From: Clostridiales bacterium
GTDB lineage: Bacteria; Actinomycetota; Coriobacteriia; Anaerosomatales; SLCP01
DNA: 58,300 nt
Direction of reading: 5' to 3'
Assembly: GCA_018333995.1 (NCBI GenBank)
Contig: JAGXSG010000009.1
Location: 1 to 58,300, forward strand
Positions within the stretch are counted from its first letter, which is position 1. Every line of letters starts with the position of its first letter. This document shows positions 21,930 through 25,135 of this stretch, one piece after another. The notes beneath the pieces are model-generated. The model was not told where the DNA came from and made no database searches. It worked only from the letters and a program-made list of their open reading frames with translations. The position numbers and the translations under genes were made by a program.

Positions 21930-21974
21930 ACTGTTTCCTCTCTTAGAGTGTATTCAGTAACAGTAGTAGTAATA

Positions 21975-22151
21975 CATGTGGAAGATGTGGAAAGACCCTT
22001 CCTGGCCAGGTGGTGTGGCCTTTATCGCGGGGCACAAGATGTTGAAGATATGTTCGCCTTCCTCCACATTATCCAGAGGGTGTATCCCTTAGAGCGTAAT
22101 CCGGGATTCCCTACACCATTCGTCCCGGTCGGGCACACATCTTTATCCACA
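21975..22151. promoter_or_regulatory. DnaA-box cluster between dnaA and dnaN
   Basis: The 232-base gap holds one perfect consensus DnaA box, TTATCCACA at 22143-22151, one near match TTATCCAGA at 22069-22077, and a tandem ATGTGGAAG / ATGTGGAAAG near 21976-21990 (reverse complement like TTTCCACA). It also must contain the dnaN promoter. This is either the second half of a bipartite origin or a DnaA-controlled dnaN promoter. Confidence 0.6.
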
Positions 22152-23578: not shown

Positions 23579-24427
23579 TCATCGGGTTAGTAGGCTGTCT
23601 AGGTATTGAGAGCCGCGCTCGGTTAACACGCGCTTACCGCTCTCATCGGCTCGTATCAAACCGGACTCCTCCAGAAAGGCGAGATCACGGTAGGCCGTCG
23701 AGAGGGCAACACGTAGTTCTCGCGAAACGATCGTTGGCCCTGCTTCGCCTAGCTCCAACACAAGCGAAAGCACCTGCTTCTGTCTTGTTGAGAGGGCGGG
23801 AAGATCAACTGGGTAGTGGGGCGCGGTGTCGTGCGCTGAGTCGGGAATGGAGTCGGCTTGATGTGATGCTTGGGCGAAAGATATCGTTACTACAGTGCCG
23901 TCTCGCAGGTTGTCTTCGATCAAGAGAAACCCCCCAGACAAACCGAGCCACTCCTGAACGATGGGAAGGCCCGATCCTACACCGCGAATGATCCTCTTCA
24001 TCTCACCTGTGGCGGTTGTGAACCCAGGTAGAATGGCGCGCTTCTTGTCGGGAAGCCCAGGGCCCTGGTCAGCGAAGCGGATGGTGGAGCCCCCATCAAG
24101 GATAGATACGACTGGTTCGGCAAAGTTTGCGTGAACGAAGTTTTCTACTAGCTCCCTTATCACGGTGTAGGGAAGACGGCCCCCCGCCTCTTGTGCAAGC
24201 GAGTACACCCGCGAGGAAAGGGAGTCGATAAGCTCCCGAGCTTCGGATTCTTCTACATCCTCAGTTCGTGGGGCGGCCACGGGAGAGTCGTAGACGGCCA
24301 CTCGTGCGCAGAGTCGAGTGTGAGCGGGGTAAGCCGACACGGTGTGGGCCCTCGGGCCGATAGCTTCTAAGGTCGCGGCCCGGGTGCCCGCTTCATCTGT
24401 GGCGGCATCAGAGAAAAATGTCTTCAT
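23579..24427 (-). CDS. GHKL-ATPase / winged-helix protein upstream of dnaA
   Basis: 282 aa. Residues about 85-185 form a histidine-kinase-like ATPase: N box RELVENFVHANF (91-102), G1 DQGPGLPD (120-127), G2 GVGSGLPIV (149-157), and GTVVTISF near the end. There is no HisKA dimerisation helix or phospho-acceptor His, no sensor and no membrane segment. Residues about 212-280 are a winged helix (LSTRQKQVLSLVLELGEAG, then a recognition helix near VSRELRVALSTAYRDLAFLE, then a wing). It could be an anti-sigma-like kinase or an ATP-dependent DNA-binding regulator. The only gene between oriC and dnaA, 19 bases from dnaA. Not assigned to a named gene; function unknown. Confidence 0.75.
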   Translation of the reverse strand: MKTFFSDAATDEAGTRAATLEAIGPRAHTVSAYPAHTRLCARVAVYDSPVAAPRTEDVEESEARELIDSLSSRVYSLAQEAGGRLPYTVIRELVENFVHANFAEPVVSILDGGSTIRFADQGPGLPDKKRAILPGFTTATGEMKRIIRGVGSGLPIVQEWLGLSGGFLLIEDNLRDGTVVTISFAQASHQADSIPDSAHDTAPHYPVDLPALSTRQKQVLSLVLELGEAGPTIVSRELRVALSTAYRDLAFLEESGLIRADESGKRVLTERGSQYLDSLLTR

Positions 24428-24466
24428 TACGCCCCTCTTTCGACGGAGTGCTGACTGGGCACACCG

Positions 24467-24978
24467 TTATCAACAACCCCCACCTAAACGCCCATCTCAA
24501 CAAACACCTGCTATAGACCGTATCCGTGCTCGTTCTCGGAGTGCCTATCACTTTAAACAAGGCCCCAGCGTGCGGTTTCCTCGATGATCCACACAACTTT
24601 CCACATCTGTGGAAAAAACACTCTGCACCTAGGTACGAGAACCCTCTAGTTTCCAGCGTAGGGGCCACGAAAGGGTTTCTCTCCTTTCCCGGCTGTTGAA
24701 AAGTGGCCGGACGAGCGGAGCGGTGCTGTGGATACCCATAGCGAACGGATTCCGGCAAGCAGCAGAACTCTTGCCCGAGAAGAATTCCGGAATGAGCACC
24801 GCGGTAGGTAATCAGAAAAATACCGTACTATCAGGTGTTTTCAAGGAGCTCTTTCACGAAAGCACTCTCGTGCGAGCGGGCTTGAGTCTATCAAGGCGAA
24901 CAGCGTCCCACAACGGACAGACGGAGGATATCCACAGGTTCAACAATCGCCCCGCCTGGGTTTTCCACACTTTCCACA
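24467..24978. other. Putative replication origin (oriC) with DnaA-box variants
   Basis: The 708-base gap between the ATPase gene and rpmH holds at least eight sites one or two bases off TTATNCACA: 24467-24475 (TTATCAACA), 24585-24593 (TGATCCACA), 24597-24605 (CTTTCCACA), 24608-24616 (reverse of TTTTCCACA), 24727-24735 (reverse of GTATCCACA), 24928-24936 (ATATCCACA), 24961-24969 (TTTTCCACA) and 24970-24978 (CTTTCCACA). The pair at 24597-24616 is a near-perfect inverted repeat, and the last two are in tandem. Flanking genes diverge from it and are the canonical oriC neighbours. No perfect box occurs here; the unwinding element was not located. No protein gene is seen in the gap. Confidence 0.8.
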
Positions 24979-25062
24979 GATTTCACTTCAATTTGGCGCT
25001 CAGCGGAGCTCCCCGCCTTTCGGTCCTGGCATGAGCGGATAGTCTCGCATGTAGCGGACGGT

Positions 25063-25092
25063 TTGACACTCTTGAAACGGCACAGATATAAT
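25063..25092 (+). promoter_or_regulatory. Strong sigma70-type promoter of rpmH
   Basis: Consensus TTGACA (25063-25068) and TATAAT (25087-25092) with an 18-base spacer, 44 bases before the rpmH start. Confidence 0.85.
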
Positions 25093-25103
25093 TGCCGGGC
25101 TTT

Positions 25104-25119
25104 GCCCCGTTTCGGGGCG
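25104..25119 (+). promoter_or_regulatory. Leader hairpin of rpmH
   Basis: GCCCCG TTT CGGGGC forms a compact 6-bp GC stem, ending 8 bases before the ribosome site GGAGG (25127-25131). It would be the first structure in the transcript and may stabilise the mRNA or affect L34 translation. Confidence 0.4.
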
Positions 25120-25135
25120 TGGAATCGGAGGAATC

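Follow-up and report, generated by a model that had tools for sequence, protein, structure and literature searches.

A GHKL-ATPase/winged-helix gene directly preceding dnaA in Coriobacteriia: a candidate regulator of dnaA or replication initiation

The first gene of the dnaA operon in the 58.3-kb window (the whole stretch of DNA analysed here) encodes a two-domain protein, in which a GHKL ATPase domain with an intact ATP site is followed by a winged helix. This gene has descended together with dnaA, and stands with it between two origin parts, the upstream one carrying regional repeats distinct from DnaA boxes. From the lines of evidence given below, we lean, by somewhat more than an even chance, towards the proposal that the protein is an ATP-responsive, DNA-binding autoregulator of the dnaA operon and/or of initiation.

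How a bacterium ties the start of replication to its energy and growth has been asked for a long time, and few dedicated initiation regulators have been described outside Proteobacteria and Bacillota. Coriobacteriia are common gut bacteria. A gene that stands beside dnaA in nearly all of them, as well as in further deep classes of actinobacteria, is a candidate that can be tested directly. Its position at the origin, directly before dnaA, makes it a good candidate for a replication-start control protein that has gone unrecognised. As a dnaA-operon partner it appears to be undescribed: our searches of open-licence papers returned nothing on the gene or its linkage to dnaA, in agreement with an earlier note on this DNA, which knew of no characterised protein with such a job. 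The features of the locus are collected in Table 1.

Table 1. Features of the GHKL-dnaA locus (window coordinates)
Feature	Position	Strand	Basis
Probable site of unwinding between dnaA and dnaN	21964..21994	.	Trio TAGTAGTAA and tandem DnaA boxes
dnaA	22162..23559	-	ATG 23559; TIGR00362 2.7e-169; one copy in the genome
GHKL-ATPase/winged-helix gene, first of dnaA operon	23579..24427	-	ORF, 282 aa; HATPase_c, ortholog alignments, AlphaFold
Winged helix, about aa 212-282, recognition helix STAYRDL	23582..23794	-	Ortholog Pfam matches and model
GHKL ATPase domain, aa 87-184	23876..24169	-	Pfam and invariant residues
N-terminal tail: opens with MKxF[FY], then a disordered linker and two strands bearing ARVAVYDxxxAAPR (aa 41-54)	24248..24427	-	Alignment, codon variation, pLDDT
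Upstream origin half and operon leader	24428..25135	.	Six DnaA boxes, GC-skew minimum
Weaker copies of the motif gAAAacnSCWGgTnAg	24471, 24483, 24498; 24841	+; -	Motif scan
Best window copy of the motif, TTGAAAACACCTGATAGT, score 15.9	24827..24844	-	Motif scan
Conserved predicted promoter reading to the GHKL-dnaA operon	24885..24913	-	Block kept in 36 genomes of the order

The locus and its tie to dnaA

The GHKL gene has a single candidate start (ATG at 24427, with GAGGGG just before it) and is flanked by rnpA/rpmH on one side and dnaA-dnaN on the other. Its stop codon lies 19 bp from the dnaA ATG, as the earlier note had measured, and we confirmed the further claim that no other ORF with gene evidence separates dnaA from the DnaA-box cluster upstream. 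Rfam gave no match for an RNA leader upstream of the gene.

A survey of conservation at dnaA, on which the earlier note had staked its proposal, found the gene in place class-wide and beyond. It is present in 266 of 298 Coriobacteriia genomes (254 of 270 among the good ones), as one copy except in three genomes with two matches. Strong orthologs occur in most of 61 relatives, and the gene was found in 157 of 396 genomes sampled across the phylum, about 119 of these, in about 20-21 families, being outside the class. Of 83 distinct loci, 80 have the gene immediately 5' to dnaA in the same orientation; of the other three, two reach the end of the record and one (L099) had partial local hits, its ORF also preceding dnaA. 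The arrangement therefore holds wherever the sequence suffices, at 81 of 81 distinct loci. The gap between the two genes has a median of 15 bp and a minimum that is a 4-bp overlap (n=75), so that a single transcript is likely; this kept adjacency and operon-like spacing are those of a dnaA-operon gene. Furthermore, the pairwise distances of the GHKL protein and DnaA are correlated (r=0.78; 71 genomes), which is consistent with vertical inheritance of the gene in step with DnaA. Adjacency alone is no proof of a functional tie, since dnaA neighbourhoods are generally conservative.

Thirteen genomes of the class with no match were checked. Seven of them lack dnaA as well and in an eighth a contig end truncates dnaA; the majority of these absences thus reflect gaps in the assemblies. 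The real losses are five (G017, G033 and three genomes of genus g45), which have dnaA and not the GHKL gene. The existence of clean losses makes the gene dispensable in some lineages. The clean-loss lineages that keep dnaA (L112, L115 and the g45 genomes L123, L125 and L126) have retained a long upstream DnaA-box region, and offer natural comparison strains for the role of the GHKL protein.

A phage or plasmid origin of the protein was considered and rejected: it has no relatives in phage records and none in viral contigs, and its plasmid matches are only distant haloarchaeal and rhizobial kinase-like proteins.

Domain architecture of the protein

The window protein matches Pfam HATPase_c over the cut-off (E=1.1e-8), as do 49 of 49 aligned orthologs. 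It possesses the N-box Asn, G1 DxGxG and G2 GxGxG signatures of the GHKL superfamily, in the form of an N box E92..N96..H99, a G1 box DQGPGL and a G2 box GVGSGLP. Eight residues (N96, H99, D120, G122, G124, G149, G151 and G153) are invariant across the 49 orthologs and E92 is present in 48 of them; the earlier note was thus right to call the three boxes complete. In MutL, GyrB and SpoIIAB, the general base is a Glu four residues ahead of the N-box Asn. As E92 stands likewise four residues before N96, the ATP site, intact and with a Glu of the general-base type, looks active.

It had also been noted that the protein lacks a phospho-acceptor His. We found no Pfam match to HisKA in the window protein and no DHp domain with such a residue, and the AlphaFold model has one helix only (aa 63-80) ahead of the N-box helix. 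The absence of the DHp domain rules out a sensor histidine kinase.

The presence of a fused winged helix, also claimed earlier, is supported by structure prediction, by the match to the PDB entry 3lmm (see below) and by Pfam matches of orthologs. In the window protein itself this domain falls under the Pfam cut-offs; TrmB exceeds its cut-off in two orthologs (36.6 bits in L095 and 29.6 bits in L105, versus 25.6) and DeoR in a third one (21.9 bits in L094, versus 21). The AlphaFold model, built on an alignment of 49 sequences, has a mean pLDDT of 86.9, with two confident domains joined by a flexible, weakly predicted linker (about aa 190-210); pLDDT is low at the N-terminus, which is disordered over about aa 1-38. 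Its C-terminal domain displays the H-H-H-strand-strand-H order of a winged helix-turn-helix, mostly at pLDDT 94-98. The L094 ortholog modelled without an alignment reached a pLDDT of 34, and its fold was uninformative. We regard the protein as probably DNA-binding.

The inter-domain linker is extended to about 150-210 aa, of low complexity and rich in P, Q, G and Y, in the families of L093 (4827-6140) and L099 (5102-6505), which retain the winged helix. In these two families, the recognition helix is altered to TWSRxL.

Within the order, the protein opens with a conserved M-K-x-F-[F/Y] (aa 1-5; 24413-24427). As synonymous codons vary there, selection acts on the peptide. A variable tail follows, and then the conserved segment A-R-[IV]-A-V-Y-D-x3-A-A-P-R. 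Its position on a disordered tail hints that MKxF[FY] is a short motif by which a partner protein is bound.

The origin, the promoter and a repeated motif

The GC skew of the window turns at its minimum at 22-26 kb. Upstream of the GHKL gene, six DnaA boxes with at most one mismatch from TTATCCACA occur at 24467, 24585, 24608, 24727, 24928 and 24961, in the 708-bp gap that separates the gene from rpmH, and their distances from the gene start are kept in most of 36 genomes of the order. On the other side of dnaA, in the dnaA-dnaN gap, the DnaA-trio TAGTAGTAA (21964-21972) stands next to tandem DnaA boxes at 21977 and 21986, and the same layout of tandem boxes then trio recurs at many other loci. 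In the bipartite oriC of B. subtilis, the unwinding region incC with its DnaA-trios lies between dnaA and dnaN (PMC6669920); by analogy, the trio and tandem boxes are likely to be the melting site. As judged from sequence, the origin is bipartite, and both the GHKL gene and dnaA lie between its two halves. Consequently, the earlier placing of the gene between oriC and dnaA stands in part: the DnaA-box cluster is indeed upstream of the gene, but a second origin part is located in the dnaA-dnaN gap. A Bacillus-like bipartite origin occurs in Coriobacteriia and in other actinobacterial classes.

The predicted promoter, whose consensus is TTGTTG-17-TGnTAGAAT (extended -10; TTGTGG/TAGACT in the window copy), is situated about 460-485 bp 5' of the GHKL gene in nearly all 36 genomes. 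It is kept in L112, though this lineage has lost the GHKL gene. A simple consensus promoter scan of the window did not list 24885-24913.

The upstream half also carries a second motif, gAAAacnSCWGgTnAg (16-18 bp), at four near-fixed sites of alternating orientation (about -420, -234, -152 and -84; 24428-25135 and its equivalents in L004-L066). The following observations bear on it. First, when a matrix was derived from the -84 site by leave-one-out, it placed the -234 site at a median rank of 4 out of about 1390 positions, versus 166 for column-shuffled matrices. Second, an iterated motif model with the DnaA boxes masked gave 112 hits in 33 origins, versus 7.6 in shuffles. Third, among genomes outside the training set, mostly outside the order, a site scoring at least 13 occurs in 33 of the 64 origins whose recognition helix is not of the TWSR type (4.9 in shuffles) versus 2 of the 14 origins of TWSR-helix families (Fisher p=0.016), this being a single phylogenetic contrast in which the TWSR clade has shorter gaps. 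Fourth, the origin gap holds five sites scoring at least 9 versus 0.4 expected by length, in a model whose training data included this gap; sites scoring at least 12 number eight in the window, about one per 7 kb elsewhere.

We regard the motif as a candidate operator of the winged helix. We do not accept it as a proven one: the g45 genomes and L114 each keep one strong site in the absence of the GHKL gene, and the motif is therefore not strictly tied to the gene. The conserved origin map (promoter, DnaA boxes, second motif and trio) shows where the GHKL protein could be tested.

Possible roles and comparison with known systems

Regulation of dnaA or of initiation, as suggested in the earlier note, is our best reading of these data. 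We infer that the protein may bind ATP, dimerise, bind DNA at the repeats and act on dnaA or initiation. ATP binding at the GHKL domain would shift the conformation or the dimer state, and this change would alter the binding of the winged helix in the upstream half of the origin, a region that doubles as promoter and leader of the operon. The altered binding would in turn set the supply of DnaA and/or its assembly, so that initiation would be coupled to ATP, or to a partner bound on the N-terminal MKxFY tail. A more ambitious version, which we judge less likely than not, is that of a new, phylum-deep part of initiation control, where an ATP-switched GHKL/winged-helix protein binds its own non-DnaA repeats in a bipartite oriC to set DnaA assembly or supply by its ATP state.

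The main rival, which we consider unlikely, is a direct action on initiation as an orisome factor, for instance as an ATP-driven DNA clamp or a bridge linking the origin halves, or through DnaA binding by the MKxFY tail; its likeness to DnaD, DiaA, SirA and YabA would lie in role and not in sequence. The position of the gene between two origin halves, the strictly spaced DnaA-box array and the conserved short motif on the disordered tail would all suit it, as would the GHKL fold, found also in the DNA clamps MutL and GyrB, whose Glu-Asn spacing is that of E92/N96. However, a TrmB/DeoR/IclR-like winged helix is more typical of promoter binders and, unlike MutL or GyrB, the protein has no transducer domain. 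Slightly less likely still, the protein might regulate genes elsewhere (nucleotide pools, division or metabolism) and be co-expressed with dnaA only for growth-rate coupling. The dispensability of the gene in some lineages and the scattered motif copies elsewhere in the window would agree with that, whereas the higher density of the motif in the origin gap and the adjacency to dnaA held across about 20 families beyond the class argue against it.

The autoregulator proposed above can be compared with several known systems. The SpoIIAB/RsbW/RsbT proteins share with it a stand-alone GHKL domain without DHp, an N-box His and a Glu that precedes the N-box Asn by four residues, and the profile of ortholog alignment A1 weakly matches SpoIIAB (E=0.024). 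The idea of an anti-sigma or STAS kinase merely housed in the dnaA operon, the alternative offered in the earlier note, nevertheless gained nothing and is very improbable: the window protein is not matched by HATPase_c_2, the domain of that family, and fits HATPase_c better; members of that family do not carry a fused winged helix; neither a STAS nor a sigma gene turned up beside it; and genes of the RsbW/SpoIIAB type and for three STAS proteins are located elsewhere in the genome (STAS on other contigs). Sensor histidine kinases have the same HATPase_c N, G1 and G2 boxes, but the GHKL protein has neither a sensor, nor the HisKA/DHp helix pair with its phospho-acceptor His, nor an adjoining response regulator.

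With Hda, SeqA, DiaA, YabA, SirA, Soj, DnaD and MtrA, the GHKL protein has in common a possible role at dnaA/oriC; it differs from them in that no relation of sequence or fold was found and none of these initiation regulators is known to combine a GHKL domain with a winged helix. The best PDB fold match is 3lmm (273 aligned columns spanning the two domains; E 1.7e-7; TMq 0.41-0.45), DIP2311 of Corynebacterium diphtheriae, an AlbA_2/HATPase_c_4/winged-helix regulator with a GHKL-like domain joined to a winged helix; its function is not known to have been characterised. Both proteins have a GHKL-type ATPase and then a winged helix. They are only 15-16% identical, and the GHKL protein has no Pfam match to AlbA_2 (Schlafen-like), its N-terminus being a short unique disordered tail with two strands, and it has a fixed place before dnaA. 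As for the origin itself, the locus resembles oriC of B. subtilis in its DnaA-box cluster 5' of the dnaA operon and in its trio and tandem boxes between dnaA and dnaN, and differs from it by the extra gene that lies here between the upstream half and dnaA.
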